From the NCBI GenBank assembly GCA_022842595.1, contig JALHPF010000008.1, positions 1 through 64,000 of the forward strand: a stretch of 64,000 nt of DNA, given 5' to 3'. Under the pieces are notes generated by a model. It had not been told where the DNA came from, did no database searches, and worked only from the letters and a program-made list of their open reading frames with translations. Positions 24,706 through 44,887 of this stretch are shown here, in pieces. The first letter of the stretch is position 1. The number at the start of each line of letters is the position of its first letter. The DNA is from Rubrivivax sp. (GTDB taxonomy: Bacteria > Pseudomonadota > Gammaproteobacteria > Burkholderiales > Burkholderiaceae_C). The translations under genes were made by a program, and so were the position numbers.

Positions 24706-24755
24706 TTTCTTGGCTCCTCGACCTGGGCTCGAACCAGGGACCTACGGATTAACAG
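24706..24755. repeat. attL: 50-bp copy of the tRNA-Asn 3' half
   Basis: This is a perfect 50-bp match to 29864-29913, in the same orientation. It covers the tRNA-Asn 3' end from the anticodon loop outward, plus a few flanking bases. It lacks the 5' half of the tRNA, so it is the att duplication left by integration, not a second tRNA gene. Confidence 0.9.
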
Positions 24756-24867
24756 GGGCTTGAAGCCCATATTTATCAACGACTTAAGCCCGTCTTCGCT
24801 CGCTACGCACCACCGAGCTTCGTCAAAACGGTCACGTTCAACTTTACGCGGTGGCTGCTGAATCCAT

Positions 24868-26166
24868 CTATTTGGGGGAGTCCTCGGTGGCCGCCGTTCC
24901 AGGACTTGCTCGTCCCGGGTTAACTGCGGCAAGTGCTCGGCCTGCCAGGTCCCGAACTTGTGCCGCAAAGTCTGGTACGGCTCGTACTGCTTCCTTGACG
25001 ACGTTTGATGACGCGAGTTCGTGCCAGGGGCTTCCGTGACTGTCGGCCTCAACTAAGCGCAGTGGTAATTCGTCCAGTCGACTCAAGGCAGAAGCAAGCA
25101 AGCGAGCTTCCATGTCCTTGTCGAAACGGGACGCTTCGCGGCGGAACCCTTCGTATGCACGTGAGATCGACGCCTTGAATGCGTAGTCCTCTGAGAGGCG
25201 AAAACGTTGCCCGATCTGTTTCGTGGCTAACCAGCCAAACCAAACCGGCGCCCCTACCGAAAGTAGAGATAGCAGTAGGTTCAAGAAAACTACGGCAGTT
25301 GTCACATCGGGTTGCCTGAACAACTCAGAGAGGGTCTTTAGTTGAGCAGACCCGAAGTAGCTGCCGGCGGCAAGTGCCACTACTAGGCCGATGATCCAAA
25401 ACCACATCGACTTGGAAAGCGCATCAGAGCGCTCTCCAAAGGCAGCGGCCAATCCAACACTGGTAGAGGCAGCGTAGGCGCTTTCGCATTGCTCGATCAC
25501 TCGTTTTGCTTCCTGCGCGCGCTCTCGTAGCTGTTTGTCGAGCTCTATAGAGTCGTCCTTGATTCCCGCAAGCCGGCCGTGGTCTTTGGTCGCATCGCGT
25601 AGCAGATCTTCAATTTGACTACGCGCCTCAGCAAGCGATTCGACGTCGGTGGGCAGCTGATCGGCGGCAGCGTTCGCCTGTTCAATGCGCTCAACCATCG
25701 AGGCGAGGGAGCCCGTTCGCGGCTCCAGGCCACTCAGCCGTGCCTCCATTCCGCGTAGCTTCGTCGTCAAGCTGCGCAGCATGGTCACAGCCTCGGCGTG
25801 GCCATCTCGCTTCAGTGCGGGAGCAAGGGCTTTTTTTAGTCCGCCTAAGGTGAGCATGTACGCGGAGGCTGCCTGGCCCCCGTTGCCGCTCCACATCTGG
25901 CCAACCGTGTTCGTTCGGAGAAAATCAAGGCGACGACCATAGTCGGCTAGGCGAGTGGCTGTTGCCGTGTCGAGCTCGTCTGCCCCTTCTTCTTGAATGA
26001 GATCGATGATGGACTGAGCCTCTTCCATGAACTCCGCGCGGGTCAGGCCTGGAAGGTTCCAGCTGCCGTGCGCGAGGCCGATCGGCTCGTCGCTCGGCAT
26101 AGCGCTTTGGATCTGGTTGATCAGCGTTTTCAGTTGACCTTGGACTGTCGTCAGCGTCGAGTGCAT
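24868..26166 (-). CDS. coiled-coil protein with two central transmembrane helices (cargo)
   Basis: The 432-residue protein is of no family I can name. The N-terminal half (about 1-230) is highly charged, with heptad-like helices (MVERIEQANAAADQLPTDVE, LDKQLRERAQEAKRVIEQCE). Two hydrophobic segments follow at about 255-275 (FWIIGLVVALAAGSYFG) and 290-315 (TAVVFLNLLLSLLSVGAPVW). The C-terminal part resembles a conserved block seen in uncharacterised membrane proteins (SEDYAFKASISRAYEGFRRE). A GGGAG ribosome binding site precedes ATG 26166. It diverges from a soluble gene across a 101-bp intergenic region, which suggests a functional pair; an antiphage or signalling role is only a hypothesis. 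Confidence 0.75.
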   Translation of the reverse strand: MHSTLTTVQGQLKTLINQIQSAMPSDEPIGLAHGSWNLPGLTRAEFMEEAQSIIDLIQEEGADELDTATATRLADYGRRLDFLRTNTVGQMWSGNGGQAASAYMLTLGGLKKALAPALKRDGHAEAVTMLRSLTTKLRGMEARLSGLEPRTGSLASMVERIEQANAAADQLPTDVESLAEARSQIEDLLRDATKDHGRLAGIKDDSIELDKQLRERAQEAKRVIEQCESAYAASTSVGLAAAFGERSDALSKSMWFWIIGLVVALAAGSYFGSAQLKTLSELFRQPDVTTAVVFLNLLLSLLSVGAPVWFGWLATKQIGQRFRLSEDYAFKASISRAYEGFRREASRFDKDMEARLLASALSRLDELPLRLVEADSHGSPWHELASSNVVKEAVRAVPDFAAQVRDLAGRALAAVNPGRASPGTAATEDSPK

Positions 26167-26267
26167 CTTTTTCTCCCGGTCGGATTCTCGCAGGAGGTTG
26201 GTCGAGCCCTCAGGGGCAGTGGGCCGACGCTCACAGCCGCAGGGATGCTAGCGCTAAGCTGGTCGGT

Positions 26268-27173
26268 ATGGACACACCGGCTGCCCTCGTGGACGTTTCT
26301 AGCGCGCGCATGTTTTTGGCCGCTGTCGCCCCTGAGTGGGAGTGGCTTTTGGCGCAGATCGAGGCAGAGGGGGGGTACGTACGCTTCCCGAGGCAGCTGT
26401 CGGTGACCATCAAGAATCTCAAGATTGAGAGCTACCCGCGCCTATATGAGAACGAGGCAGCAGTCGGCGCGCTGGTCGGCAGGGCGCTCTTGGGGCCGCA
26501 GGGCTTCGAAGACCTTGACCGCGAGGCGGCGGCAGCGTCGCCGAAGGAAAGAGGTCAGTTTGTGGTCGACTTCATGAAGCAGTTGAGTGCGCTCGACGCT
26601 CCTTTTACGCTGCCGAAAACTCCCTCCGAAGAGCGCGCAGCGCAAGCGGCGTTTGAGGCTCTCGCCCCCGATGAGCAGAAGTCGCAAGTGCGTGTGTGGC
26701 AGCACCTGTTGATGGGCTTCTTGGTTACCTTTTACCAGCACCTGTCCGTGGCGGTGCACGGCGAAAAATTGTCGGCGCTTGTGGCACAAGCCAAGGCTGG
26801 CGACACTTTAGCGTTTGCGAAAGCGGTGCAAATCGATAAGCGCGTCTTGACTGAAATTCCATTCTTTAGAGAACGATATGCGCAGGCCGCCATGGAGTCG
26901 GACTCGCGTCTCTTGGACGAAGTAGGCCGCAGGCTCAGCGCGCCACCTTATCGAGGTCGCATCCGGCACAAGGCTCTCTGGCTCACATTCGCCGCCCTGG
27001 AGACGCTTGGGCTACTGGACGACTTTAAGCACGAAGAGCTGCTTGACTTCTGCGACAGCATCGGAATTGGTCGGCACAAGAACCGGATCGACGATGTGAA
27101 GAACCTCTCGAAGCGATTGGCAGAGTACCGTCGCTTTCAGGGACGCGGGTTGGTGGTCGAGTCCACGCCCTAG
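26268..27173 (+). CDS. uncharacterised soluble helical protein (cargo partner)
   Basis: This 301-residue protein is without signal peptide or membrane segment. It is mostly helical and acidic at the N-terminus (MFLAAVAPEWEWLLAQIEAE), with a Lys/Arg-rich C-terminal helix-rich part (IRHKALWLTFAALETLGLLD, IGRHKNRIDDVKNLSKRLAE). I recognise no catalytic motif. It starts 101 bp from the divergent coiled-coil membrane gene and ends 101 bp before the replication gene. Its position in the cargo slot of an integrated element, and the lack of a housekeeping match, make it a candidate for an uncharacterised defence or fitness function. Confidence 0.7.
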   Translation: MDTPAALVDVSSARMFLAAVAPEWEWLLAQIEAEGGYVRFPRQLSVTIKNLKIESYPRLYENEAAVGALVGRALLGPQGFEDLDREAAAASPKERGQFVVDFMKQLSALDAPFTLPKTPSEERAAQAAFEALAPDEQKSQVRVWQHLLMGFLVTFYQHLSVAVHGEKLSALVAQAKAGDTLAFAKAVQIDKRVLTEIPFFRERYAQAAMESDSRLLDEVGRRLSAPPYRGRIRHKALWLTFAALETLGLLDDFKHEELLDFCDSIGIGRHKNRIDDVKNLSKRLAEYRRFQGRGLVVESTP

Positions 27174-27274
27174 ACATTCTTTTCACGGCGTCGCCGCAGA
27201 AGGGCGTCGTGTAGAGAGTCCGTATCCGTTGCAGGAAGCCGATTCGGCATGCCTGCCGCGGACAAGGATCTCTC

Positions 27275-28570
27275 GTGACTCAGTCTTCAAAACCAACCGC
27301 CGTCGTTTCTGACGGACGCGGAGCGGCCGGCGGAAATGATGGCGGAACAGGTGCGCCGCCTAGTAACACAGCACCTGATACCTGCAACACTGCCTTCTTG
27401 CCCTTGCGTTGGGGCATCGACAGCCTCTACCTCTCCTACCAAGGCGAGCTGTCTGATCACCGTGAGGCTCAGCTCAGGAAACTGAAGCAACTGGCCCAGT
27501 CGGCACCGCATGAGGCCGCTGAGGCCCAACTGGCGATCGAGGGGCACGTCTTCGAGGTCAGAGACAAGAGCTCTGGACTTTTCGCTTTCACGTTGGTGGA
27601 CGGCTCCTACATGATTCGACTGTCGGGCCGGCGGTCGAAGAAGACGCCGATGGCCTACGTGCAGGTTTCCAGTGGTTTGCTCGCCTACAAGACCGTGTTG
27701 GAGATCGTGGTCGAGCTGAGAGCCATCTTGGAGTCACTCGGCGACATTGAGCGGCCCAGGGTCAGCCGCGTTGATCTGTTTGCCGACTTCTGCACCGACG
27801 TGGACGTGGAGAGCTGGAACCGGCGGGCCTGGGTGACTAAGGCAGCGGCCATTCATCAGTACGCAGAAGGGCCTGTGTTCACAGGCTGGTCAATCGGCGC
27901 TGGTGGTCCGCTGATGGCCCGGATGTACGAGAAACTGATCGAGACGCGCAAGAGCGGCAAGACCTACCTCCATGACCTCTGGAGCCGCGCGGGCTGGGAC
28001 GGGGAGCGATCCGTTTGGCGGCTCGAGTTCGAGTTCAAGCGCGAGGTGTTAGGGCAGCTCGGTCTGGACGATGTCCACGCAGTGCTGGGCGGTCGTGGCG
28101 GGCTCTGGCAATACGCCACAGAGCAATGGTTGCGTCTGTCGGTGCCGAGCGAGAGCGACACCACACGCAGCCGCTGGCCGACCCACCCTTTGTGGGCATC
28201 TCTTGCCTCGATCGACTGGAGCGGTGAAGGCGGCGAGTTGTTGCGAAGCTACAAGCCTGTGAGGTCGCCCAGTCTCGACTACCTCGGATCTCGTGCAGCA
28301 GCCTTGATCGCGTCAATTGGGGCGGTCATGGGCGAGGGTGACTTCGAGGCCGCCGCACGGGCGACGGCGGACCTGGCCTGGCAGGAGCTGGCGCGCCGTG
28401 GCAACCCAGGCTTCCTAGGCGCCGATCAGGTCTTCACCGAAAAGGTCGCCTTCCTGGCCCGTGGATACAACACGCGCATGAATGCGCCGGAGGTCGTGGT
28501 CCCTGACCCTGAAGACCCGATCTACCTCAACCCTTACTTCCGGGCCAAGCGGGGCTTGAAAGAGCTGTGA
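27275..28570 (+). CDS. replication initiation factor (Rep_trans / rolling-circle type)
   Basis: The 431-residue protein starts at GTG 27275 (MTQSSKPTAV) and has a low-complexity Gly/Ala-rich lead of about 45 residues. The following domain fits the replication initiation factor family of filamentous phages and small elements (RstA-like, PF02486): RWGIDSLYLSYQGEL, then RVSRVDLFADFC and SVWRLEFEFKREVL, spaced as in those proteins. It should nick and replicate the excised circle. The stop overlaps the next start (GTGATGG), consistent with translational coupling to the AlpA-like gene. Confidence 0.8.
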   Translation: MTQSSKPTAVVSDGRGAAGGNDGGTGAPPSNTAPDTCNTAFLPLRWGIDSLYLSYQGELSDHREAQLRKLKQLAQSAPHEAAEAQLAIEGHVFEVRDKSSGLFAFTLVDGSYMIRLSGRRSKKTPMAYVQVSSGLLAYKTVLEIVVELRAILESLGDIERPRVSRVDLFADFCTDVDVESWNRRAWVTKAAAIHQYAEGPVFTGWSIGAGGPLMARMYEKLIETRKSGKTYLHDLWSRAGWDGERSVWRLEFEFKREVLGQLGLDDVHAVLGGRGGLWQYATEQWLRLSVPSESDTTRSRWPTHPLWASLASIDWSGEGGELLRSYKPVRSPSLDYLGSRAAALIASIGAVMGEGDFEAAARATADLAWQELARRGNPGFLGADQVFTEKVAFLARGYNTRMNAPEVVVPDPEDPIYLNPYFRAKRGLKEL

Positions 28571-28989
28571 TGGACGATCCGGACCTGCCTTTGCCTGTCG
28601 TCCGCTGCCTGTCCAGAGAACAGGCAGCGGTGTATCTGGGGATCGGGGTCACGCTCCTGGCTCAGCTCGACGTGCCCTGCATCCGCTTCGGGCGGCGACA
28701 GGTCTTCGACCGGGTTGACCTCGACGCCTGGCTCGATGACCATAAGGGCGAGCGAAGGCGGGCCGGAAAGGAGGATTTCCAATGGCCCGTACAGAAGGAA
28801 TCTACAAGCGGCCGGACTCCGGCTTCTGGTGGATCAATGCAACGCTCCCCAACGGCCAGCGCATACGCCAAAGCGCTGGGACTGAAAACCGAGAGGATGC
28901 CGAGGCGCTGCTTGCCAAGCTCAAGCTCGACGCCTACCGAGGGCATCACTTCGGGATCAAGCCCCAGCGTTCCTGGCAAGAGGCCGTGA
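28570..28989 (+). CDS. AlpA-like helix-turn-helix protein overlapping the integrase
   Basis: The first 65 residues form a small winged helix-turn-helix of the AlpA/excisionase kind ([40 protein letters not shown]). The frame has no stop at the usual place and continues into a Ser/Pro-rich tail that overlaps the integrase start by 208 bp in another frame. The probable role is control of excision, or regulation of int. Start ATG 28570; a GTG at 28567 is an alternative. The long out-of-frame tail is probably a by-product of the overlap. Confidence 0.7.
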
Positions 28990-29825
28990 TTCGGTATCTC
29001 GACATCAAGAGAGGCTTGCGAAGCTTCAAGGACCTGCAGCGCATCTGTCGCCTGCTCGATCCCTACCTGGGCACCATGACGCTCAACCAGATCAACGGTG
29101 ACGTGGTCTGGCGTGTCGTGCAGGGGGAGTCGAAGAAGGGCAACAAGCCTGCAACGGTGAATCGCTATCTGGCAACGATGCGCAGCGTGCTCCGCATGGC
29201 GCGCGACGAGTGGCAGTGGCTGGACACCATCCCGAAGATCCGCATGCTGCATGGCGAAGTCGAGCGGGACCGGTGGCTGACGCGCGTAGAGGCGGATCGG
29301 TTGATCGCGTGCTGCGCGCCACACCTGGCGGCCCTGGTACGGTATGCCCTGGCGACAGGCTGCCGTGCTGCTGAGATCACAGGCCTTGAGTGGGACCGGG
29401 TCGACCTGGCGAGGAATACCGCCTGGCTGAACCAGACCAAGAACGGCACACCGAGGGGGGTACCTTTGAACTTAGATGCAGTGCAAGTGTTGAGAGAGCA
29501 GATCGGCAAGCATCCGCGGTTTTGCTTCACCTACGAAGGCCAGCCCTTGCGGGCGGACGTGACCAACACGGCCTGGCACACGGCGTTGAAGCGGTCGGGG
29601 ATCACGGACTTCCGCTTTCACGACCTGCGGCACACCTGGGCTTCTTGGCATCGGCAGGCGGGAACGTCTTGCGACGAGCTGAAGGATCTGGGAGGCTGGA
29701 AGTCGCGGCAGATGGTGGACCGCTATGCCAAGTTTGCGACCGAGAACCTGTTGTCCGCGGCGTCCCGTATCGAGAGCGGGGGAGGGCGGGACGTGACCCA
29801 GCGGTCACGTTTTCGTCACGCCTAG
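28782..29825 (+). CDS. tyrosine integrase of element 1
   Basis: The 347-residue tyrosine recombinase begins [20 protein letters not shown] (arm-type N-terminal domain), then has an SAM-like core-binding region at about 60-150 and the catalytic domain. Visible active-site residues are Arg195 in TGCRAAEI, His-x-x-Arg283 in [11 protein letters not shown], the HxxH-type GGW and Tyr315 in VDRYAKF. A strong site AAAGGAGG precedes the start. It ends 43 bp before the intact tRNA-Asn, the usual position for the recombinase that made the 50-bp att repeats. Confidence 0.92.
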
Positions 29826-29835
29826 AAGGTCAAAA

Positions 29836-29857
29836 GCCCTGCACTCGCGTGCAGGGC
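29836..29857 (-). terminator. intrinsic terminator of tRNA-Asn carried by element 1
   Basis: GCCCTGCAC and GTGCAGGGC make a perfect 9-bp stem with a 4-nt loop, followed on the minus strand by TTTT. It ends the tRNA-Asn transcript and replaces the native terminator that now lies at 24675-24698. It may also end int transcription on the plus strand. Confidence 0.75.
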
Positions 29858-29863
29858 CTTGAT

Positions 29864-29913
29864 TTTCTTGGCTCCTCGACCTGGGCTCGAACCAGGGACC
29901 TACGGATTAACAG
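29864..29913. repeat. attR: 50-bp repeat inside the intact tRNA-Asn
   Basis: This copy is identical over 50 bp to 24706-24755 and lies within the intact tRNA gene. The sequence at this end restores the full 3' half of the tRNA, so the host gene is preserved. Confidence 0.9.
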
Positions 29914-29944
29914 TCCGGCGCTCTACCGACTGAGCTATCGAGGA
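29869..29944 (-). tRNA. tRNA-Asn(GTT)
   Basis: The gene is 76 nt and encodes CCA. On the minus strand it begins TCCTCGATAGCTCAGTCGG and has anticodon GTT in the loop of CTGTTAATCC, with a normal T-arm (GGTTCGAGCCC) and acceptor end GAGGAGCCA. The acceptor stem and all arms are complete. It is the integration site of element 1 and lies only 59 bp from the left end of element 2. Confidence 0.95.
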
Positions 29945-30003
29945 ACAGCCTCGCAGTATAGCCTGAAATTCTGCTGCTTTGACGAGTGACGCACTGCGCA
30001 GTC

Positions 30004-30018
30004 CTGGCGGAAGGGGCG
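30004..30018. repeat. distal att of element 2: 15-bp copy of the tRNA-Ser 3' end
   Basis: CTGGCGGAAGGGGCG here is identical and co-oriented to 44796-44810, which is the 3' end of tRNA-Ser. It continues as a perfect 9-bp hairpin (CGGAAGGGG-CGT-CCCCTTCCG, 30008-30028), which could serve as a terminator. The repeat defines the likely left end of element 2. Confidence 0.65.
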
Positions 30019-30150
30019 TCCCCTTCCGTAGAACTTTACGACATCTCACGACACCTCATCGCACCCTGAAATCGACCGCCCAGCATAGGTGGATTGCGTT
30101 TCGGGTCGACTCTCGCCGAAACACGGCATATCATCCAGTCGCATGTGATT

Positions 30151-30171
30151 TGGATGGGAAGGTGGATGGGA
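30151..30171. repeat. inner repeat, left copy (overlaps int start)
   Basis: The 21-bp sequence built of TGGATGGGA-AGG-TGGATGGGA is identical to 44733-44753 and in the same direction. The left copy contains the AAGG ribosome binding site of the integrase and reaches its ATG. Being near both ends of the element, it may be an arm-type integrase site or an alternative crossover core. Confidence 0.7.
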
Positions 30172-31358
30172 TGCCGAAGGTTTCCGTAGAACTGGGCGCG
30201 CTGGCTGTTTCACGAATCAACGACCCCGGGCTGCACTTTGTGGGTGTGATTCCCGGCCTGGCGCTGAACGTGACACCTACGGGTGCGCGATCGTGGGTGC
30301 TCAGGGCCCGCGTGGGTGGCAAGCGGCGCGACATGGGCCTGGGTTCCTATCCGGCCGTTCCACTGGCCCTGGCCCGTGAGAAGGCCCGTGAGGCGCGCGA
30401 AGTGATCGCGAAGGGTGGCGACCCTGTGGGCGAGCGCCACGCGGCCCGTGCAACAGCCAAGGCAGCGGCTGCAGCCGCGCGCACCTTCAAGCAGTGCGCC
30501 GCCGCGTACATCGAAGCCCACGAGGGCGGGTGGAAGAACGCCAAGCACGCCCAGCAGTGGCGTAACACGCTCGAGCAGCATGCATACCCGGTACTGGGGC
30601 CGTTGCGCGTATCAGACGTCGGGCTGTCTCACGTCATGCGCGTGCTGGAGCCCCTGTGGTCGACCACAACGGAGACTGCCGTGCGACTGCGCGGCCGCAT
30701 TGAACTGGTGTTGGACTGGGCCACGGTGCGTGGCTACCGCGAAGGCCCGAACCCTGCGCGCTGGCGCGGCCACCTCGACAAGCTGCTGCCGAAGCCCACC
30801 AAGGTGTCCAAGGTCGAGCACCATGCAGCGCTGCCTGTGGCTGATGTGGCCGCCTTCATGACCCGCCTGCGGGCCGCGCCGGGGATGGGCGCACGTGCGC
30901 TCGAATTCGTCGTGCTGACCGCTGCGCGCAGTGGCGAGGTACGCGGGGCGACGTGGGCCGAGATCGATCTGGACGCCGCCCTCTGGACGGTACCGGCCGC
31001 ACGCATGAAGGCAGGCAAGGAACACCGCGTGCCACTGTCACCGCCGGCCGTCGCGCTGCTGAAGGCGCTACCGCGCATGGCCAGCGTCGACCTCGTGTTC
31101 CCGGCGCCGCGCGGCGGAACGCTCTCGGACATGACCCTCACCGCCGTGCTGCGCCGACTGGAGGTTCCTGCGGTGCCGCACGGGTTCCGCTCGACCTTCC
31201 GAGACTGGGCGGCAGAGCGCACGCACTACCCCGGGGAAATGGCCGAGATGGCACTCGCGCACACCGTCGGGGACAAGGTAGAGGCCGCGTACAGGCGAGG
31301 CGACATGCTCGAGCGCCGCGCCGCGATGATGGCCGAGTGGGCGGAGTTCCTGGCATGA
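30171..31358 (+). CDS. tyrosine integrase of element 2 (DUF4102-type N-terminus)
   Basis: The 395-residue P4/prophage-type integrase starts at ATG 30171 (MPKVSVELGALAVSRIND). The N-terminal DUF4102-like arm-binding domain contains GLALNVTPTGARSWVLRARV and RDMGLGSYPAVPLALAREKA. A core-binding domain and catalytic domain follow, with Arg253 in TAARSGEVRG, His-x-x-Arg340 in PHGFRSTFRDW and Tyr374 in EAAYRRGD. It shares an ATGA overlap with the next gene. The open frame extends upstream through the 21-bp repeat, but no better start is seen there. It is at the distal end, not beside the intact tRNA-Ser. Confidence 0.9.
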   Translation: MPKVSVELGALAVSRINDPGLHFVGVIPGLALNVTPTGARSWVLRARVGGKRRDMGLGSYPAVPLALAREKAREAREVIAKGGDPVGERHAARATAKAAAAAARTFKQCAAAYIEAHEGGWKNAKHAQQWRNTLEQHAYPVLGPLRVSDVGLSHVMRVLEPLWSTTTETAVRLRGRIELVLDWATVRGYREGPNPARWRGHLDKLLPKPTKVSKVEHHAALPVADVAAFMTRLRAAPGMGARALEFVVLTAARSGEVRGATWAEIDLDAALWTVPAARMKAGKEHRVPLSPPAVALLKALPRMASVDLVFPAPRGGTLSDMTLTAVLRRLEVPAVPHGFRSTFRDWAAERTHYPGEMAEMALAHTVGDKVEAAYRRGDMLERRAAMMAEWAEFLA

Positions 31359-31825
31359 CCACACCCCAACACCTGCGCGACCTCGAGGCGCATGGATTGC
31401 GGCTGGTGCCTGTCGGGGGGCGACCGCCGAAGACTGCCCGTGACGTCGCTGTGTATCTCGCCGCGTGCTGGTTCGAAGCCGGCGCAGCGGGCAAACGGCC
31501 GAAGGTAGGGCAGGGCGTGGTCGACCTGTGGCAGTCCAAGGCCTACCGCGGGATAACAGACCCGGCGCACGTCGTGGCACGCAAAGCACCGGCGCTGCGG
31601 GCCGTCGGTTCTGACCACATCGTGTTGGACTTCAAGGGCACCGGCACGACACGCGCAAGGGTAGGCGAGGGCGCAGGGGTGCTGCTGCTGCCCGCGGCCA
31701 GCTATGCAGATGACAGCGCCGGCACGCTGCAGATTCAAGGGCCAGTGTGGTCGTGGGCCTATGGTGCCGAAGAGGCAGAACACTTCGACGCGACTGGCGT
31801 CGTGAGGTATGGACCGAGAGCCTGA
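31355..31825 (+). CDS. hypothetical protein coupled to the integrase
   Basis: This 156-residue protein of unknown family starts MTTPQHLRDLEAHGLRLVPV and overlaps the integrase stop by 4 bp (ATGA). It has two recognisable halves: a helical first part, and a Gly/Ala-rich beta part (SDHIVLDFKGTGTTRARVGE). The translational coupling suggests a role with integration or regulation, but no motif supports a specific one. Confidence 0.55.
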   Translation: MTTPQHLRDLEAHGLRLVPVGGRPPKTARDVAVYLAACWFEAGAAGKRPKVGQGVVDLWQSKAYRGITDPAHVVARKAPALRAVGSDHIVLDFKGTGTTRARVGEGAGVLLLPAASYADDSAGTLQIQGPVWSWAYGAEEAEHFDATGVVRYGPRA

Positions 31826-31914
31826 ATTCAAGGCAAGAAACGGTTTCTTGTCTCCCAACTGACTGGGTCGGAACCTACCGTGGGGAATCAGCAACCCTCA
31901 CGAGGCATAGCCCC

Positions 31915-37483: not shown

Positions 37484-37983
37484 GCAAGGCAATGCTGACA
37501 AAGCAACAGGATTCGAACCGCGCCAAGATTGCCGCCACCCAGCGCCGACGCGCGGAGGTGGAGAACGCGAGGCAGGCCCCGGCCGAAGTCTCGGAGGTTA
37601 TCCGCGCAACCTTGGTGAAGCAGGAAGCCGAACGGGCCCGCGTTCTGCGCTACCAACTGGCCGCGCTGGGCGCTGGCGAGTACGCCGAACCCTTCACCGT
37701 ACGCGCTGCCGGTAGCACTGCCCGTGTGGATGTCGGTGATGTGCTTGTCGGCCTCCTGGGCGTCGATCGCATGATGGAACTGCTGCAGCCTCATCTCGAC
37801 ACGTTGCCCGACGGTCTGACCGCAGAGCAGCGCCGGCAGCAATTGGCCGAGATCGACGCCGAACTGCTCGCGCTGGGCCACGCGGAAATGGACCTAATCG
37901 AGCAATGCGAGGCTGAAGGCGTGCCATTCACGTGGCGCGCCAACATGGACCCGGCAATCGTGCTGCGCCTCGCACGCCAGTGA
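37480..37983 (+). CDS. hypothetical coiled-coil protein
   Basis: The 167-residue protein starts MSKAMLTKQQDSNRAKIAAT and has a strongly charged N-terminal helix, a small beta-rich middle (PFTVRAAGSTARVDVGDVLV) and an acidic helical tail. Start and stop both overlap neighbours by 4 bp. Some phage tail-assembly or scaffold-like proteins look similar, but I cannot assign it. Confidence 0.55.
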   Translation: MSKAMLTKQQDSNRAKIAATQRRRAEVENARQAPAEVSEVIRATLVKQEAERARVLRYQLAALGAGEYAEPFTVRAAGSTARVDVGDVLVGLLGVDRMMELLQPHLDTLPDGLTAEQRRQQLAEIDAELLALGHAEMDLIEQCEAEGVPFTWRANMDPAIVLRLARQ

Positions 37984-38108
37984 CCCCCAACGACATTGCC
38001 GCCGCGGCGCTGGCCACTATGGCCGCGGGGCTGCTGCGGGCGCCGACCTGGTGCCCGCCGTTCGATGCACACCAACGAGAGGCCCACCATCGTGGCCGCT
38101 TCATTTAA
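37980..38108 (+). CDS. very small ORF closing the gene train
   Basis: A 42-codon frame starts at GTG 37980 inside the previous stop (GTGA) and encodes MTPNDIAAAALATMAAGLLR followed by a short Pro/His-rich tail. Coupling to its neighbour is the only support. It could be a short membrane or regulatory peptide, or chance. Confidence 0.35.
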   Translation: MTPNDIAAAALATMAAGLLRAPTWCPPFDAHQREAHHRGRFI

Positions 38109-38557
38109 GCCTCTAGTGAACTGGAGCCGTGGGCTAGTGTGTTGCGCCGAGAGTCCATGGATCTATCAGCGCCGAGCGATCTGGGCGTCAACGCGGACCG
38201 GCTTGACGCTGCCAAGAATTTTCCATGCTTCGTCAGCGACCGTAGTGCGGCGTCTGCCTAGACTGGTCGCTCCGCAGGATTGCGGCTATCGTGTGCCGCA
38301 ACGCCACGCAAAACGTCGCCGGAAGGAAAAAGCGGAAGGACTGGCATGCCGAGGATTCTTGGCAGCCCGTTGCAAAGGGCGGAATCGCCCGTCGCGGGAG
38401 TCGCGGAGGGCACTCCTACGGGGGCCAAAGTTCATCCGAACGGGCCCCTTTCGGCTATGCGTCAGCTACGTCGCTGGGCAAAACCAACCTCGCGCATCCG
38501 ACAGGGTTGGACCACTGTATGTTAGGCCTCAGGACACCGCACAGATACCTCTCCACC
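38109..38557. other. gap of about 450 bp before the HNH cassette
   Basis: No gene is supported. The left integron-like half-site GTTAGGCCTCAG lies at 38521-38532, 26 bp before the HNH gene. Sequence to the left has no matching 5' attC half that I can see. Confidence 0.5.
38521..38532. repeat. left integron-like half-site (GTTAGGC)
   Basis: GTTAGGCCTCAG begins with the consensus integron core GTTRRRY and is the exact reverse complement of 39238-39249, which ends in the complementary RYYYAAC core. The pair flanks one gene of about 700 bp, as in a mobile gene cassette. Confidence 0.55.
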
Positions 38558-39241
38558 ATGAGCAAAAGAGCCTTTTCGCAATCCGAGCGGTTTGCCGTCC
38601 ACGTAACGCATGGAGAGAAGTGCTATTTGTGCTCCAAACCTCTTGATCTACAGTCGATGGAGGTGGATCACGTTGTGCCTGAGACCCTTGAAGGCAATCC
38701 GATACGACTTGCGCAGGTCCTTCTCGAGCTTGGCAGATCAAGCGATTTTAATATCCAGTCTTTCGCGAACTGGTTACCTGCATGTCGCAGGTGCAACGGC
38801 AAGAAGCTGGACACAATCTTTCAGCCTAGCCTTCTTGTGCAACTGTGTCTCCAACGCGCAGCCAAGCATGCAGCCAAAGCTGCTGCCATGGCAGAGGAAT
38901 TAGTCACTAACAGGAAGATATCCAACGCACTCGGCGTACTTCTAAGAGCCGACGAGAAGGGGCTTCTTTCCGAGGAAATGAAGAACGCTATCATTCCGCT
39001 GATCGAATTCCAGACTACGCACCGTGCACCAGAGGTAGTAGGCGAGCCGATTCGCCTTTCTCCTTTGTACGAGGTTTTGAGCGACAACGGCCAGATCCAA
39101 ATAGTTCGCGGTCCACATGGCGTCGGCGGAAGGCCGACTCCAAGGGCAGGCTTCTCGCCACAAGGATGCGTGAGTTGTGGTTCGATAGCCGCATGGAATG
39201 GAATACGGTGCGTAATATGCGGGCAAGTCGACGACGACTGA
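38558..39241 (+). CDS. HNH endonuclease (cassette-borne)
   Basis: The 227-residue protein has an HNH nuclease centre: EKCYLCSKPLDLQSMEVDHV supplies the first CxxC and the catalytic DH, and NWLPACRRCNGKKLDTIFQ the Asn and second CxxC. A C-terminal zinc ribbon-like end (CVSCGS...CVICGQ) is unusual and may bind nucleic acid. The start is ATG 38558; the upstream extension of the frame is not coding-like. GC content is much lower than the adjacent replication genes. The gene is flanked by 12-bp integron-like half-sites, suggesting recent arrival. It could be a restriction-like or defence nuclease. Confidence 0.85.
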   Translation: MSKRAFSQSERFAVHVTHGEKCYLCSKPLDLQSMEVDHVVPETLEGNPIRLAQVLLELGRSSDFNIQSFANWLPACRRCNGKKLDTIFQPSLLVQLCLQRAAKHAAKAAAMAEELVTNRKISNALGVLLRADEKGLLSEEMKNAIIPLIEFQTTHRAPEVVGEPIRLSPLYEVLSDNGQIQIVRGPHGVGGRPTPRAGFSPQGCVSCGSIAAWNGIRCVICGQVDDD

Positions 39242-39249
39242 GGCCTAAC
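39238..39249. repeat. right integron-like half-site (GCCTAAC), start of a partial attC
   Basis: CTGAGGCCTAAC is an exact inverted copy of 38521-38532. The following sequence to about 39330 (CCCCTCACTGAACCC..., then CAACGGCAGGCCGC) has the look of the 5' half of attC sites known from Xanthomonas-type integron cassettes, but no matching GTTRRRY 3' end follows, so the site is truncated. Confidence 0.55.
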
Positions 39250-39488
39250 CCCTCACTGAACCCGAGCGTCAACGGCAGGCCGCACGCCCGTGCTGCCATT
39301 GAGACTTCACTCAATCAGCAGCCTTGCAAGATCCTCGGGTATCGAAAACTCTTTTAAGTATCTGCCCAGCTCAAACGCAACCAAGTCCATGGTGTTGCAC
39401 ACTAAGTTTGAGACCGACGAAAATTCCTCTGTTTGAAAGCGGTTCAGCTAGTTCGCTCCGCACCAACCGCGGCCATTCGTTTCCCAAT

Positions 39489-39890
39489 ATGCTCGCAGCC
39501 CTCTTCGCACGTCGAAAACTCAAAACCACGTTCTGTCAAAGCTGCGTAGTATTGATACGCATGCAGTTTGTATTGGCCCGCACAGATCCGCATGCGATTC
39601 AAGTTGACCCGTGGGCATTAGGATATATCTATGGGGGAGCGACTGCACTACTTGATCGACTTGGAGTGGCACCCAGTCCTGAAGCCTACAAGCTTCTTGA
39701 ATCCGGGTACGGCGCGATTTTTGATCAAGAATTGCTGGGAAGGGAAATACTAACTTTGACCATGGAGTTGAGAACGAATAGCCAATTCGCGGAGGGTCAG
39801 CAAATTGGAGGAAGCGAACTGCTGCACTGCCAACCCTCCGATCCTGCACCAATGGCATTAGGTGCGCATCTGACCTCGACGCGAGTGTGA
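39489..39890 (+). CDS. possible cassette ORF of unknown function
   Basis: The frame of 133 codons contains DPWALGYIYGGATALLDRLG and SPEAYKLLESGYGAIFDQEL, with credible helical composition, and ends 2 bp before an attC-like site. ATG 39489 or ATG 39561 could be the start; no clear ribosome binding site is seen. A minus-strand frame covers the same bases and looks less protein-like. Cassettes usually carry one small gene followed by an attC, which fits. Confidence 0.4.
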   Translation: MLAALFARRKLKTTFCQSCVVLIRMQFVLARTDPHAIQVDPWALGYIYGGATALLDRLGVAPSPEAYKLLESGYGAIFDQELLGREILTLTMELRTNSQFAEGQQIGGSELLHCQPSDPAPMALGAHLTSTRV

Positions 39891-39891
39891 T

Positions 39892-39986
39892 GCCCAACCA
39901 CTCACTCAAACTTACCCATGCAGCAATGGCGCAAGCCCGTGCTCACGCCGCTCGACTCGCCGGTCAGCTCAGCTCGAACGCTAAGT
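39892..39986. repeat. attC-like recombination site
   Basis: The site begins with GCCCAAC and passes through CACTCACTCAAACTT, a central region of partial dyad symmetry and CGGTCAGCTCAGCTCGAACG, ending at a degenerate GCTAAGT instead of GTTRRRY. The flanking CTCAACTCGAACGTTAGGC-like ending is typical of 59-base elements. It follows a small open frame, as in a gene cassette. No integron integrase is in the window. Confidence 0.5.
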
Positions 39987-40147
39987 GTTCGGGTATAGAT
40001 CTCGAGCTCGGGCTAGCGAACTGCAGGAGTGGGTAGGGAGGCGTCGACCGGCCGCCCCAGCCATTCCGCCCGTGCTCGCCGCCAGCGTTCGCGGGCTCAG
40101 GCAAGGCGCCGCCCGGCGCGTCGCACACCTACCCGTCGAGATCGACC

Positions 40148-40483
40148 ATGGATGACCACAGACTGCAAGCACTGCGCGCCCAGCGCGAGCTACACACCGC
40201 CCAGGCCGAGGGCGGCCGGGCACGCTGCGAAGCCGAGGCCGCCCAGGCTGTGGCCGCTGCGCGCGCCCTTGGCCAGAGCCTAGCCGCCGCTACGATGACC
40301 TACCCGCAGATGGTCGACTGCGTGCAGCAACTGGAGATGCTGCGGCAGGTGGCGTGGGTTGACCACTGGGTGCACTCGTGGGAGATGCTGCAGCAGCGCT
40401 ACGGGTGGGCCGTGCAGCCTCGCCGCCGTGAGGAGTGGGTGGCGTTCCTCGAGGGTGTGGCCGATGTGCACGCGCTGGTGTGA
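40148..40483 (+). CDS. hypothetical helical protein
   Basis: A 111-residue protein starts MDDHRLQALRAQRELHTAQA, with an Ala/Glu-rich coiled-coil first half and a Trp-rich second half (WVDHWVHSWEMLQQRYGWAV). No family is recognised. It lies between the cassette region and the HEPN genes and reads toward the first of them. Confidence 0.55.
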   Translation: MDDHRLQALRAQRELHTAQAEGGRARCEAEAAQAVAAARALGQSLAAATMTYPQMVDCVQQLEMLRQVAWVDHWVHSWEMLQQRYGWAVQPRRREEWVAFLEGVADVHALV

Positions 40484-40498
40484 GGCTACCGGAGTTAT

Positions 40499-41728
40499 CT
40501 AGCCTCTGCGGTACTTGAGCGCCTGCCGGATTCGCTTCGCTTGCAATTCCAGCTTGCCCACATCAGGTGAGTGACCCATAAACTGGGCAGCATCGGCACG
40601 GGAAATGAAGCCGAATCGGTTCACGATGTGAAAAACCAGTAGTTCATCGACATACTTCTTCAATTGAAAAACCAAGGATTCAATATCCTCTGTTTCTGAG
40701 CCGACATGAACAAATCGATTCCGATGGACAGTCAGGTTCGACAAAATCAAGTTCGATAGCTCGCGATCTGAGAATATGAAAGCGGCGCGACGGGTCGCTA
40801 CTTTGTACCCGTCGTGGGTGCTATCTGTGAGGTGTTCAAGCAAGCTCCACAGCCGCAGAAAAGCATCATTCAGATCTGCAGAATCTAAAGCGCGAACGTA
40901 ACGGACCAATGCCCGTTCTAGGTCTACCCGATACGCATGGTGCGCAAGATGCACACGAAGCTTCTCAGCGAAAGCAAGGAGCTTGTTAAACTTTCCTTTG
41001 TCAGTGAACAAGAGCGCAGGGCGCGAGTAGCCGGGATCAAACCAGAACGCTTCTGTGGCCAATGCCCCATTTGCAACGTGAATCGTATGAAAGGGTGACA
41101 ACCTTATTTCATTCACCGGTGTGGGTCGTCCGCTCGAGTGCCTCCAAGACTTGCTGCGATTCAATGCCAAGTTCCAGCTTGCTCTCACAAGATCAACAGC
41201 ATCTAGGGATCTCTCGGCCGCTTCGGGTGCGGAACGAGCCAACACATAGGTCGACACCTGCATGTACCCAGAAGGAAGATCGTGGCCGAGTATGCCCTTA
41301 GACTTTCCGGCGAGTTCGGCGCGCTGTGCAAAGCCTTTGGCAAGCTTTGGCAAGAAAGTGACAGTGACTTGCCCAACCTTAATTCGAGGGACAGACAGCG
41401 TATGGCAAATTGATATCTCGGTAAGCAATCGATGCGGCACAGGTGTGCGCTTTAGAAATTCGTGCTCGTATCTTGAGCAGACCTGAAGAATGCCGTTTGC
41501 TGTTATCTTCTTTGAAAGGGATTCATGGCGAGCAACTCGCCTCAGAATGCGCTTTTGCTCAGCTTCTGGCAGTGCAGGGTCAAAATCAATGCACCCTCCA
41601 AGGATGATCGCAAAGTCTGAATAGAAGATCTTTCCAGACATGAAGCCTTCTGGGTCGCCCTCAGAGCGTGCCCTCTCAGCCCGGGCGGCAAGGCCAGGCA
41701 GATCGGAGTCTTTGCGTTGAAAGGCCAT
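40499..41728 (-). CDS. HEPN-domain protein (ApeA-like), putative RNase
   Basis: The 409-residue protein has an all-helical C-terminal HEPN domain with AFLRLWSLLEHLTDSTHDGY and the motif VHRNRFVHVGSETED, which supplies the R-x4-H catalytic signature near residues 335-341. The N-terminal half is mixed alpha/beta and of unknown type. ATG 41728 is chosen because GAGGGAATCC precedes it directly; a longer frame exists. HEPN proteins with this arrangement include ApeA-like abortive infection RNases. GC content is low. Placed in an integrated element beside a second HEPN gene, an antiphage role is plausible but unproven. Confidence 0.7.
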   Translation of the reverse strand: MAFQRKDSDLPGLAARAERARSEGDPEGFMSGKIFYSDFAIILGGCIDFDPALPEAEQKRILRRVARHESLSKKITANGILQVCSRYEHEFLKRTPVPHRLLTEISICHTLSVPRIKVGQVTVTFLPKLAKGFAQRAELAGKSKGILGHDLPSGYMQVSTYVLARSAPEAAERSLDAVDLVRASWNLALNRSKSWRHSSGRPTPVNEIRLSPFHTIHVANGALATEAFWFDPGYSRPALLFTDKGKFNKLLAFAEKLRVHLAHHAYRVDLERALVRYVRALDSADLNDAFLRLWSLLEHLTDSTHDGYKVATRRAAFIFSDRELSNLILSNLTVHRNRFVHVGSETEDIESLVFQLKKYVDELLVFHIVNRFGFISRADAAQFMGHSPDVGKLELQAKRIRQALKYRRG

Positions 41729-41770
41729 GGATTCCCTCGTATATGAGCCGTCGTCCGACATCGCGACGGC

Positions 41771-42022
41771 CTACTGCGTCCCGCGCCGCCACGCATCCGT
41801 CATCGCGAATTCATGCGGCCCGTCTGGCACCAGACGCCGCTCGAGGCTGCCCGGTAGAGGCGTGGCCTGGGGGTCGATCCACATCGCGACCTCGGCCGTC
41901 ATCAGGTGGCGAGTCTTGGATGTGCGGCCGGTCTCAGGGTCAGTGAGGCGCCAGCGGTAGTAGTCGACGGTGTGCATGTGGAGAGCATGCACGGGCAGTG
42001 GCTCAGGGGGTGAGCCATCCAC
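41771..42022 (-). CDS. small hypothetical protein between the HEPN genes
   Basis: An 83-residue protein; the conserved-looking part begins MHTVDYYRWRLTDPETGRTS and continues with HLMTAEVAMWIDPQATPLPG. Similar short proteins are common in betaproteobacterial integrated elements, but no function is known to me. It lies between the HEPN genes on the same strand with small gaps, so it may belong to their transcript. Confidence 0.55.
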   Translation of the reverse strand: MDGSPPEPLPVHALHMHTVDYYRWRLTDPETGRTSKTRHLMTAEVAMWIDPQATPLPGSLERRLVPDGPHEFAMTDAWRRGTQ

Positions 42023-42024
42023 CC

Positions 42025-43077
42025 CTACATGCGCCTAACGATTGTCCTTATCCAAGACATAGCGGCTTCAATCGCCCAGTCAGTCTGCGCCAGGCTCAAA
42101 GAGGGCATGGGGTCTGAACCAGGCCCATGTCCGAGCGAGTTTCGCACCTTGCGAAAATAGTCCTTGAGCATCTCGCCTTCCCAAACCGCAAGGTAGGCGC
42201 CATTCGCTTTGCTCACCAAGTTGTCGATGTAATTGCTTGCCCCGCCCTCTGTGCCTTTCGTCCACTGTTTCGAATCCGACACTATTTTTATAGCACTCTC
42301 GAGCGCTTTAGCTGCGAAGAAAGCTGGATCTTTACCGTTCGCGTCCCGCTGATCTAGTGCCTCCTTCATATCTATATCAACGTTATTCCACAGCGGAGAA
42401 GACAATAAGTCCCAGAATGGTTGTGCCACTGTTGCATCAATCACTACATCTGTTGCCAACTGGAAGAATCCGTTGTGGTAGCTGAGTGGGGCCTTAGCAC
42501 GGCGGAACCTCTCATTTATCTCTTCGACCTGAGCGCGAAACACAGAGTTAACCGCAAGATTGGCAGCCTGGACCTGTTCAACGAAGCGATGGCTTTTGCC
42601 ACCCCACTGTGGGTTTTTACTCTCATAGAACGACGCTCTTGAAAGTGCGTTAGGAAGGTCTGAATTTGCTTTTTGGATTTCCTCGCCACGCAGCCTTAGA
42701 GCGAGTTCAATAAAACTCAGCCGTTCTTTGATAAATTTGTCAGGATCCTGCATGCGATACTTCTCTTTAACAAAGCTGCCGCACACAAAATCAATTGAGT
42801 AGTAGCCGGATACGGGCATATCCTGATTTAAGGCATTCTTCGTCGTGTACGAATAATATCGAGGTGCAAGATTATCAACGCCGAGCTCCCGGGCGAGGCG
42901 GTCGTGGAGCGCCTCCCATTTCGCTTGCTGCCCCAAACTTTCCTTGCCATCAACTTTGCATGGCAGCGCGTCAAGAGTAACTCCAAATGCCTGATATAAT
43001 AGGACTTGTTCGCTTGGCGTGAACACCTTCCAAATAGGGTTATTCAAATACCGGTACGCAAAAATGTCAGTCAGCAT
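42025..43077 (-). CDS. AbiJ-like HEPN protein, putative abortive infection RNase
   Basis: The 350-residue protein begins MLTDIFAYRYLNNPIWKVFT, a start I recall from AbiJ-like proteins, and ends in a helical domain with FRKVRNSLGHGPGS near residue 310, a likely R-x4-H HEPN motif preceded by AKALESAIKIVSDSKQWTKG. ATG 43077 is chosen over the longer frame because GAGATATCGC precedes it and the family start matches. It is low-GC and in tandem with the ApeA-like gene. Such proteins cleave RNA on phage infection; the inference here rests on motif and context, not on a database match. Confidence 0.65.
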   Translation of the reverse strand: MLTDIFAYRYLNNPIWKVFTPSEQVLLYQAFGVTLDALPCKVDGKESLGQQAKWEALHDRLARELGVDNLAPRYYSYTTKNALNQDMPVSGYYSIDFVCGSFVKEKYRMQDPDKFIKERLSFIELALRLRGEEIQKANSDLPNALSRASFYESKNPQWGGKSHRFVEQVQAANLAVNSVFRAQVEEINERFRRAKAPLSYHNGFFQLATDVVIDATVAQPFWDLLSSPLWNNVDIDMKEALDQRDANGKDPAFFAAKALESAIKIVSDSKQWTKGTEGGASNYIDNLVSKANGAYLAVWEGEMLKDYFRKVRNSLGHGPGSDPMPSLSLAQTDWAIEAAMSWIRTIVRRM

Positions 43078-43090
43078 GCGATATCTCGAA

Positions 43091-43399
43091 TCAAGAAATT
43101 TCGTATCGCGCGCTGAACGGCCCGACCACACAGGACTGCCACGCCCGCAGCAGCGCGTCCCGTGCCGGCGGCTGCCGCACTAGCTGCCAGTCGCTGGGAT
43201 CCATGCCGCGATCGAACGCCGACGCCAACAGCTGGCCGAATTCGCCGCAAGGGTCTAGCGCATCGGGGCCGAGATCGACGAGGCTGCCTGTCCGCTGTTT
43301 GAAGCACGCGTCGAGGACGCCCAGGGCCGGCGCCTGGGGGTGACTGCGCCGCAGGCCTATGGCCGCGCGCACGACGTCTGGGCTGATGGTTCCTTGCAT
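43091..43399 (-). CDS. hypothetical protein
   Basis: A 102-residue protein starts MQGTISPDVVRAAIGLRRSH. It is richer in GC than the HEPN gene that follows 13 bp later, so it may be an older element gene with its own function, or the first gene of the HEPN transcript. No family is recognised. Confidence 0.5.
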   Translation of the reverse strand: MQGTISPDVVRAAIGLRRSHPQAPALGVLDACFKQRTGSLVDLGPDALDPCGEFGQLLASAFDRGMDPSDWQLVRQPPARDALLRAWQSCVVGPFSARYEIS

Positions 43400-43509
43400 G
43401 CGACGGGATCGTAACGACTCGTTGCGCCGCGTCTACCCCGTCGGCAGGTTGGCCTGGAGGGAGTCTGCGCCGGATTCGCGGGGCCGGCGTGTGGCCCTAG
43501 GATGCGCCG

Positions 43510-44694
43510 ATGGGCAAGCAAGTCGCAGTCATCTGCCACGGCGTGGAGTACACAAGCATCAAGGCGTTGGCCGAAGCTTTCGGGCTTGCCCCGGCAAAAA
43601 TCGTCCAAAGAATTGCGCTGGGCTGGACCTCTGAACAGGCCGTCGGCCTCAGCGAACGTGTCCGCAAGCCCAGCACCGGCAAGCCTGTCGAATTCGAGGG
43701 AGTGCGATATGGAAGCCTCGTCGAGGCGTCCAGAGCTCTGGGGTTGAGCCCGGATGCAGTAGCGGCCCGTGTTGCGCACGGGTACTCAACTGATGAAGCG
43801 CTGAGCGGGAAATTGAAGCCGCGTGTCGGCCACAGAAGCAAGCCGGTTAGCTTCGCGGGGAGCACCTACCCGAGCCGTGAGGCCCTATGCGCTGCGCACG
43901 GTCAAACCTGGAGCAACGTAACGCGCAGGGTAGGCCGCGGCTGGACGATGGAACAAGCGCTGCTTCTACAACCGCCGCCGCCACGCTTCCGAAACATCGA
44001 GGGGCACGCCCGCGACCAGAAGTGGAAGGAGGTGCGCATCGCGGACGGGAAGGTCGAGCCGGTACCAGACGGGGAGGGCTACAAGCTCTACCTGGTCACC
44101 AACACGGTAAACGGAAAGGTCTATGTCGGCCTCACGATCACCTCACTCGAGCAGCGCCTCAAGCAGCACTTCGCCGCTGCGAGGAAGGGCCGCAAGACTG
44201 CCTTCGCGAATGCAATGCGCAAGTATGGCGAGGGAGCATTCAAGATCGAGCTGATCAAGGCCGACGCCTCGACCTACGACGAACTGCAACGCCAAGAGGT
44301 TGAGGAGATCCAGAAGCGCGATGCGATCCGTAATGGCTACAACAGCGCAAAGGGCGGAGCGATCGGAACATCCAAGGATGTGACCATCGCCGGAAGGGTG
44401 TACCCCAGCTACGCTGCAGCCGCTCTGGCCTACGGCGTCGACCCGGTGGTTTTCTCTCTCCGGCTGGGCCGCCTGAAGTGGTCACCCGAGGAAGCTGTGG
44501 CGCTCGTGGCGCGACGCAGCTACGGAATCAGTGCAGAGGTGACGATTCGCGGGACGACCTACCCGAGCCTGCGAGCCGCTGCGGCTGCACTCGGCGTTGT
44601 GTACGGCACGGCCTGGGATCGATACCGCAAGAAGGGGTGGACCGTCGAGCAAGCCCTGGGCGTCGAGCCGCCGCCGCGGACACTTGCCCCATAG
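43510..44694 (+). CDS. GIY-YIG nuclease flanked by five DNA-binding-type repeats
   Basis: The 394-residue protein has a GIY-YIG nuclease at about residues 188-281 (YKLYLVTNTVNGKVYVGLTI; catalytic-type Arg in LEQRLKQHF; NGYNSAKGG). Around it lie five copies of a 40-residue unit with consensus V-x-f-x-G-x-x-Y-x-S, about 20 variable residues, then R-x-x-x-GW-x-x-EQA. Three copies precede the nuclease (about 7-46, 57-98, 110-150) and two follow it (about 290-330, 343-384). They resemble NUMOD-like DNA-binding modules of homing endonucleases. It ends 38 bp before the right inner repeat, suggesting a role in element maintenance or site-specific cleavage. Confidence 0.8.
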   Translation: MGKQVAVICHGVEYTSIKALAEAFGLAPAKIVQRIALGWTSEQAVGLSERVRKPSTGKPVEFEGVRYGSLVEASRALGLSPDAVAARVAHGYSTDEALSGKLKPRVGHRSKPVSFAGSTYPSREALCAAHGQTWSNVTRRVGRGWTMEQALLLQPPPPRFRNIEGHARDQKWKEVRIADGKVEPVPDGEGYKLYLVTNTVNGKVYVGLTITSLEQRLKQHFAAARKGRKTAFANAMRKYGEGAFKIELIKADASTYDELQRQEVEEIQKRDAIRNGYNSAKGGAIGTSKDVTIAGRVYPSYAAAALAYGVDPVVFSLRLGRLKWSPEEAVALVARRSYGISAEVTIRGTTYPSLRAAAAALGVVYGTAWDRYRKKGWTVEQALGVEPPPRTLAP

Positions 44695-44732
44695 CGGCGC
44701 GGCTGGCGAGGGCCGCCCAATCACTTCGCGGG

Positions 44733-44753
44733 TGGATGGGAAGGTGGATGGGA
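44733..44753. repeat. inner repeat, right copy
   Basis: This is identical to 30151-30171, 21 bp, in the same direction. It lies in non-coding DNA 43 bp from the 3' end of tRNA-Ser, whereas the left copy contains the integrase ribosome binding site. Its retention at both ends without a coding reason suggests an integrase-binding or crossover function. Confidence 0.7.
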
Positions 44754-44796
44754 AGAAATCAAAAACACCTAAGAACCCGCGCAAACGCTCGCTAAC

Positions 44797-44887
44797 TGGC
44801 GGAAGGGGCGGGATTCGAACCCGCGGGGGGCTGTTAACCCCCACACGCTTTCCAGGCGTGCGACTTAAGCCGCTCATCCACCCTTCC
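44797..44887 (-). tRNA. tRNA-Ser(GGA)
   Basis: The gene is 91 nt and encodes CCA. On the minus strand it starts GGAAGGGTGGATGAGCGGC and has anticodon GGA in CCTGGAAAG, a long variable arm (GTGGGGGTTAACAGCCCCCC region), T-arm GGGTTCGAATCCC and the end CTTCCGCCA. All arms are complete. Its 3' end is the right boundary of element 2. Confidence 0.95.

Follow-up and report, generated by a model that had tools for sequence, protein, structure and literature searches.

Two unrelated integrative elements in adjoining tRNA-Asn and tRNA-Ser genes of a Rubrivivax genome, probably brought side by side by a rearrangement

We analysed a 64,000-base stretch of Rubrivivax sp. DNA (the window: positions 1-64000 of the 173,172-base contig C8, in a 5.46 Mb genome assembled into 75 contigs), in which two integrative elements lie back to back at two tRNA genes. 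In all likelihood they are unrelated: element 1 (24706-29913, 5.2 kb), at tRNA-Asn, would be an integrative replicon with a slot for cargo genes, element 2 (30004-44810, 14.8 kb), at tRNA-Ser, would be satellite-like, and the two tRNA genes would have been made adjacent by a rearrangement.

Both tRNA genes, as predicted by ARAGORN, are on the reverse strand: tRNA-Asn(GTT) at 29869-29944, the sole complete copy reported in its own genome, and tRNA-Ser(GGA) at 44797-44887. Element 1 is delimited by an exact, maximal 50-bp repeat, made of the 45-bp 3' half of tRNA-Asn, from the anticodon loop to the 3' end, and 5 bp of 3' flank; one attachment (att) copy lies within the intact gene (29864-29913, reverse strand), the distal one at 24706-24755 (forward strand), and a repeat of this length is not explicable by chance. 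Element 2 is delimited by an exact, maximal 15-bp repeat, 14 bp of which are tRNA, found at the 3' end of the intact tRNA-Ser (44796-44810, reverse strand) and in a distal copy at 30004-30018 (forward strand). Within the window, this 15-mer has two exact copies and one match with 2 mismatches, three in total at up to 2 mismatches; shuffles gave a mean of 0.56 such matches, and three were reached in 1 of 100. Only 59 bp (29945-30003) separate the 5' end of tRNA-Asn from element 2, and each element has its own, different tyrosine integrase. The repeats and the spacing described in the original prediction are confirmed, and its proposal that both tRNAs were hit independently is supported: as judged from sequence, two unrelated integrative elements sit in two tRNA genes.

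For element 1, an empty site is found in the related genome G092, which matches the window at 24644-24755 (95%) and 29858-29966 (96%), the two matches overlapping at att with nothing between them, and thus joins at the predicted positions. The host flank at 24644-24705, which carries the tRNA-Asn terminator hairpin, continues, whole or mostly, into an intact tRNA-Asn in G092 and in G100, G001, G033 and G034. These alignments establish tRNA-Asn as the site of a genuine insertion, element 1. The tRNA-Asn 3' half occurs in detached copies, whose end lies within 3 bp of the same base, in 16 of 41 same-genus genomes (own genome included, hits visibly at contig ends left out), and comparison of 25 sequences downstream of tRNA-Asn revealed no conserved host neighbour, a long stretch being shared in one pair only. 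By these detached halves and the variable downstream DNA, tRNA-Asn is a hotspot across the genus by itself.

Two other observations concern tRNA-Asn. A decayed copy of its 3' half, with the same terminator type (84%), lies far from the locus in G000 (contig C2, 242427-242522; L163), and is read here as the scar of an older element or of the rearrangement. In G022 (C68, 47598-47674), the two acceptor-stem halves of tRNA-Asn include a G-U pair, the picture expected if a foreign version of the 3' half had been brought in by an element.

Five open reading frames (ORFs) of element 1 were scanned. A cargo gene occupies the reverse strand (24868-26166); the others are on the forward strand: ORF301 (26268-27173), a backbone ORF ahead of rep with no assigned function, recognized by its recurrence in relatives; rep (27275-28570); xis, a putative excisionase gene (28567-28989), which shares 208 nt with int in a different frame; and int (28782-29825), encoding a tyrosine integrase (PF00589, 2e-32; catalytic residues present by eye) and adjoining the intact tRNA-Asn.

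Rep belongs to no Pfam family; its structure model (pLDDT 80) has the fold of rolling-circle replication initiators. All six PDB matches found by Foldseek at E <= 0.001 are proteins of this kind, namely those of Geobacillus (4cij) and staphylococci (4cwe/4cwc), with values from 3e-9 to 4e-7, and a sequence search of the PDB gave one insignificant match only. Three residues, R216, Y218 and K220, are invariant across 36 Rep sequences, the window's plus 35 from 58 loci (the rest being short, partial, not tried or, for L216, in an odd frame); we assume Y218 to be the catalytic tyrosine. Sequence relatives of Rep are found on four plasmids of 1.7-1.8 kb from Mesotoga and Synechococcus, the Mesotoga plasmid being almost filled by the Rep-like gene. 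None was found in the phage collection searched, and a scan of IMG/VR viral contigs, made with two short peptide patterns only, gave 32 pattern matches and no relative. The fold and the relatives on tiny plasmids are together in keeping with an integrative replicon, copying as a rolling circle after excision: Int and the putative Xis would recombine the 45-bp tRNA half, regenerating tRNA-Asn, and Rep would then copy the circle.

As a side observation, each of the 30 family members examined has a xis frame that runs on without a stop for 121-226 nt past the start of int, and in 27 this open stretch exceeds that of the third frame; in one, L204, the xis frame opens only 56 nt ahead of int. A conserved long overlap of the two genes is possible, although the members are related and do not provide an independent test.

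A profile search with Rep in named genomes resulted in 58 loci, mostly from Betaproteobacteria (Nitrosomonas, Nitrotoga, Herbaspirillum, Methylovorus, Rhizobacter); a few carry other labels, among them Gammaproteobacteria, Thermodesulfobacteriota and WOR-1. Adding the window, int was found in 50 of 59 loci and a xis-like match in 34, and in 31 int is followed, within 200 bp, by a tRNA gene of opposite orientation (Asn, Met, Lys, Arg, Thr, Leu or Pro). A second copy of the tRNA region, 38-102 bp long, is present in 28 of the 50 loci searched for att repeats, and delimits elements of 4.7-10.3 kb; repeats of at least 38 bp were counted, three loci with 15-19 bp were not, and 19 had none, several of these being cut by contig ends. 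In 24 of 27 delimited relatives, an ORF in the position of ORF301 lies ahead of rep, in many of them with only 10-36% identity to the window's. Two same-genus relatives, G027 and G006, are also located at tRNA-Asn, and share with the window 73 and 52% identity in Rep, 92 and 81% in Xis, 94 and 90% in Int. Among 399 genomes drawn from the order, Rep was detected in 23, which belong to 16 of 165 genera; four of the 23 have partial matches only, near E 1e-27. No description of the family was found in the titles and abstract openings of the open PMC literature, among the matches listed.

Beyond this backbone, element 1 would provide a slot for interchangeable genes, defence genes in many relatives and one coiled-coil gene here. 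The window's cargo gene has no copy in G027 and G006: the slot is occupied by the two DRT3 genes in G027, and by Drt3b beside a Drt3a-like frame reading in two pieces in G006. The PADLOC scan covered 64 ORFs jointly (25 families among the matches listed), 30 rescanned singly, and the DRT3 genes of G027 and G006. Strong matches (E <= 1e-45) were found in the slot of 9 of the 27 delimited relatives. Two are DRT3 (L179 and L181, scanned as L151 and L150, which are taken as the same contigs; in L150, where the Drt3a-like frame is in two pieces, only Drt3b was scanned), while the others, in L184, L191, L193, L203, L211, L221 and L223, are two type IIG restriction-modification systems, a cytosine methylase, PD-Lambda-2, Upx, a retron reverse transcriptase and a candidate PDC-S49. 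Five further relatives (L199, L215, L219, L227, L228) matched ATPase/nuclease-type or candidate models with E between 2e-16 and 2e-32; L217, matching a TPR model only, was not counted.

The window's own cargo gene encodes a 432-aa protein (PHROG 34659, 1.8e-72), in which a coiled-coil and a hydrophobic hairpin are recognizable by eye. Relatives occur in a Providencia phage, on plasmids of Agrobacterium and others and in four viral contigs; a Klebsiella plasmid has a further one, within a P2-like prophage, where the gene lies between the replication genes and the portal gene; we take this position to be that of the P2 tin locus, known for anti-phage genes. The gene is scattered, being found in 10 of the 399 genomes, each of another genus. 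By its position, it is a likely candidate for a defence gene.

Taking these data together, we lean, with modest confidence, towards the view that element 1 stands for a so far undescribed family of small integrative replicons, found mainly in Betaproteobacteria, in which a plasmid-type rolling-circle Rep is joined by gene order to a Xis and an Int, both using the anticodon-loop half of at least 7 tRNA kinds, with a single cargo slot specialised for anti-phage systems, whose unmatched genes, including the window's, would be new defence genes.

Element 2 has its integrase gene at the end away from tRNA-Ser: the encoded tyrosine integrase (30171-31358, forward strand) features an arm-binding domain and, by eye, the catalytic residues, and the distal 15-bp copy lies 152 bp ahead of its start. 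Related integrase genes were found at 26 places in the genus, 25 of which were analyzed, leaving out a partial one (G024). In 15 of the 25, the window included, a 15-mer resembling the tRNA-Ser 3' end (up to 3 mismatches) lies 154-205 bp upstream, against a mean of 0.6 and a maximum of 3 of 25 in 200 rounds of shuffling of the upstream DNA; this argues that element 2 is real and that its 15-bp repeat is not due to chance. Among the other ten, which are without the core, six feature upstream, at a distance of 135-183 bp, a tRNA-like CCGCCA 3' end that points the opposite way; of the remaining four, one (G023) shows a weaker copy by eye and three show nothing. The whole layout is repeated in G081, where a core copy, the integrase and an AlpA match are followed by tRNA-Ser, 10.5 kb off.

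The remaining genes of element 2 include, on the forward strand, those for an AlpA-like excisionase or regulator (31747-32205; PF05930, just above cut-off), a primase-helicase with NrS-1 HBD and VapE domains (32881-35133), a CI-type repressor (35690-36031; PF07022, just above cut-off), an HNH nuclease (38291-39241) and a GIY-YIG endonuclease (43510-44694). On the reverse strand are a 420-aa protein, HEPN-like only by eye and with no hits in Pfam, PHROGs or PADLOC (40499-41761), and an AbiJ_NTD4 protein (42025-43131; PF18863, 1.3e-12; no PADLOC match), probably an abortive-infection cargo. Comparison of 14 ORFs with PHROGs gave no capsid, terminase, capsid-remodelling or packaging match. The set of Int, AlpA, CI, primase-helicase, HNH, AbiJ_NTD4 and GIY-YIG genes suggests a satellite-like island, whose insertion would have used the last 14 bp of tRNA-Ser and left int at the distal end, with an abortive-infection-type gene carried along.

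The original prediction had also proposed that the two tRNAs were probably neighbours. Comparison of their places in 56 relatives does not support such a neighbourhood as ancestral. Using tRNA-Ser, or the gene beside it, as a marker, both were found on one contig in 11 relatives (in the others, separate contigs carry them or only one could be located), and in all 11 they are far apart, the arrangement that the original prediction had named as its refutation: the distance is 41-61 kb in eight (G012, G022, G028, G061, G081, G082, G085 and G100), 150 kb in G090, 167 kb in G065 and 546 kb in G067, where the two are on opposite strands. Starting from tRNA-Asn, G022, G012 and G028 have blocks A, B and C in turn and then tRNA-Ser, the two tRNAs being separated by 44-53 kb; in G022 and G012 block D comes after tRNA-Ser. 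In the genome under study, block D comes after tRNA-Ser as well, and the interposed blocks are displaced: B is found on C8 at 85.7-102.3 kb, A and C on contig C7. Block A lies beside tRNA-Asn, on its upstream side, in 30 of the 33 relatives read (25 of 28 plus 5 of 5); for three of the 25 (L126, L170, L175) the count relies on a collinear match beginning deeper inside. Among the three that lack it, L157 is on too short a contig, and L171 and L172 differ. At tRNA-Ser, homology with the window ends within 8 bp of the 3' end in 17 of 18 relatives' loci, the 18th being without the tRNA. In G092, tRNA-Asn adjoins block A, and identity to the window, 99%, ends at 29968: the break in the genome under study therefore lies within 29969-30003. 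An empty site with the two tRNAs 59 bp apart was not seen among the 56 relatives, contig ends limiting the comparison, and no second copy of the 29968-30003 stretch was reported in the genome under study. Probably, then, a rearrangement in this lineage made tRNA-Asn and tRNA-Ser adjacent. A different local change is seen in G085 (C2, 49419-49510; L276), where tRNA-Ser is inverted between its usual neighbours, beside about 3 kb with no match to C7 or C8.

Rearrangement followed by insertion of element 2 is the simplest order of events, because the DNA to the left of the distal att copy should be the former downstream DNA of tRNA-Ser. From tens of kb apart, the tRNAs would thus have become neighbours, probably before element 2 arrived, and may have been so just before its arrival. 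The same argument, together with the mere 59 bp between tRNA-Asn and element 2, is what speaks for the alternative of ancestral neighbours, both hit to form one 20-kb hotspot; the distances in all 11 informative relatives, the position of block A and the lack of an empty pair make this quite improbable. Alternatively, element 2 may have entered tRNA-Ser at its ancestral place, a later rearrangement having cut within 35 bp of its left att copy, perhaps through its own integrase acting on a second site. The breakpoint does lie directly beside that copy; however, inspection by eye reveals no core copy where blocks A and C end on C7, and the scheme demands either a coincidence or an unusual reaction, so that we regard it as unlikely.

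As to the nature of the elements, it is possible, if doubtful, that element 1 is an integrative and mobilizable element (IME), whose Rep is really a MobT-like relaxase using a conjugative helper. The fold is indeed of the Rep_trans kind, and streptococcal IMEs with Rep_trans proteins need them for transfer, according to the portion of PMC7563843 consulted. The protein, however, has no significant Pfam Rep_trans match, its sequence relatives reside on tiny plasmids, and no coupling protein was found among the five ORFs of element 1. That both elements are ordinary prophage remnants is hardly credible: they do have integrases, and prophages and viral contigs contain genes related to the cargo gene of element 1, but none of 19 ORFs compared with PHROGs (five of element 1, 14 of element 2) has a structural or terminase match, and Rep has no relative in phage records, nor in viral contigs at the sensitivity of the scan.

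Several results weigh against the interpretation preferred here, that of an integrative replicon and a satellite-like island joined by a rearrangement. None of the 36 Rep proteins has a significant match to a replication family in Pfam, the best being Rep_trans with E 0.11, and the putative Xis is weakly backed by profiles, with an HTH_17 match below cut-off. No counted PADLOC match is found in 13 of the 27 delimited relatives; no PADLOC model matches the window's cargo protein convincingly (JetC, E 0.0012), and the structure model of this protein (pLDDT 50) is too poor for a fold search. Concerning the rearrangement, block C is downstream of tRNA-Ser in only 8 of 17 loci read, the other loci having different DNA: this variability fits a hotspot, but weakens the link between block C and tRNA-Ser, which rests on part of the genus. 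The assembly in 75 contigs, moreover, leaves room for a misjoin between 29968 and 30003.

The DNA to the left of element 1 has features of its own. An inverted pair (about 24239-24291 and 24423-24461), between the pyruvate kinase gene and element 1, looks like a small repeat element, being found at five places in G030 and at one each in G035 and G004. The pyruvate kinase gene (22256-23674) has a long DNA match (at least 1.3 kb, 70-89%) in only 5 of 40 same-genus relatives, and this flank may be accessory itself.

Elements of the element 1 family, 4.7-10.3 kb long, with exact ends at tRNA halves and a constant backbone, the remainder being cargo, offer a simple and well-bounded place to seek new anti-phage genes. 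If the proposed reading is true, the 432-aa gene and the unmatched cargo of about half of the delimited relatives would be new defence genes, and element 1 would point to a plasmid-type rolling-circle replicon living in Gram-negative chromosomes. The locus also suggests caution, as tRNA genes touching in one genome need not be a shared hotspot: a rearrangement can create the same picture.

Among described systems, element 2 resembles the PICMI satellites which, in the part of PMC10803314 available to us, have a core of Int, AlpA and primase and no capsid genes. It differs in its site and size, PICMIs lying at fis in Vibrionaceae, with a prototype of six genes, while element 2 lies at tRNA-Ser, is 14.8 kb long and carries abortive-infection-type cargo. 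Capsid-remodelling or packaging genes of the P4 type are absent from its 14 ORFs as compared with PHROGs, and capsid-remodelling genes are absent also from PICMIs, to the extent of the same text.

For element 1, a parallel is offered by the Pseudomonas tmRNA islands I23, I44 and I55, the last moved by jumbo phages: as presented in the excerpt of PMC12595487 used, they share with it an integrase, direct repeats, phage-defence cargo and no recognised transfer genes, but reside at tmRNA, have a 14-bp repeat, range from less than 20 to more than 70 kb and contain other core genes. Streptococcal IMEs, which use Rep_trans proteins for transfer, are similarly small and have a tyrosine integrase, tRNA targets in some cases and a protein related to rolling-circle initiators, within what the passages seen of PMC5357655 and PMC7563843 tell. 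Unlike them, element 1 has no significant PF02486 match and no TcpA-like coupling protein among its five ORFs, lives in other hosts, and has 45-bp repeats starting from the anticodon loop. The fold of its Rep, compared with Rep_trans initiators (PF02486) as a whole, is that of RepDE and the Geobacillus Rep, again with no significant profile match. The AICEs (actinomycete integrative and conjugative elements) of the pSAM2 type, as summarised in the section of PMC3218068 at hand, feature the order rep-xis-int-att, a rolling-circle Rep of the RepSA type, a tyrosine Int and an FtsK-like transfer protein. Element 1 has the same gene order, a tyrosine Int and, by its predicted fold, a rolling-circle Rep; it departs from them in having no FtsK/SpoIIIE Tra among the five ORFs scanned, a Rep of the RepDE/Geobacillus fold, hosts among Betaproteobacteria and, in many members, defence cargo. 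We do not file it as a member of any of the systems compared; by analogy, it would work like an AICE without transfer genes and with a defence slot.

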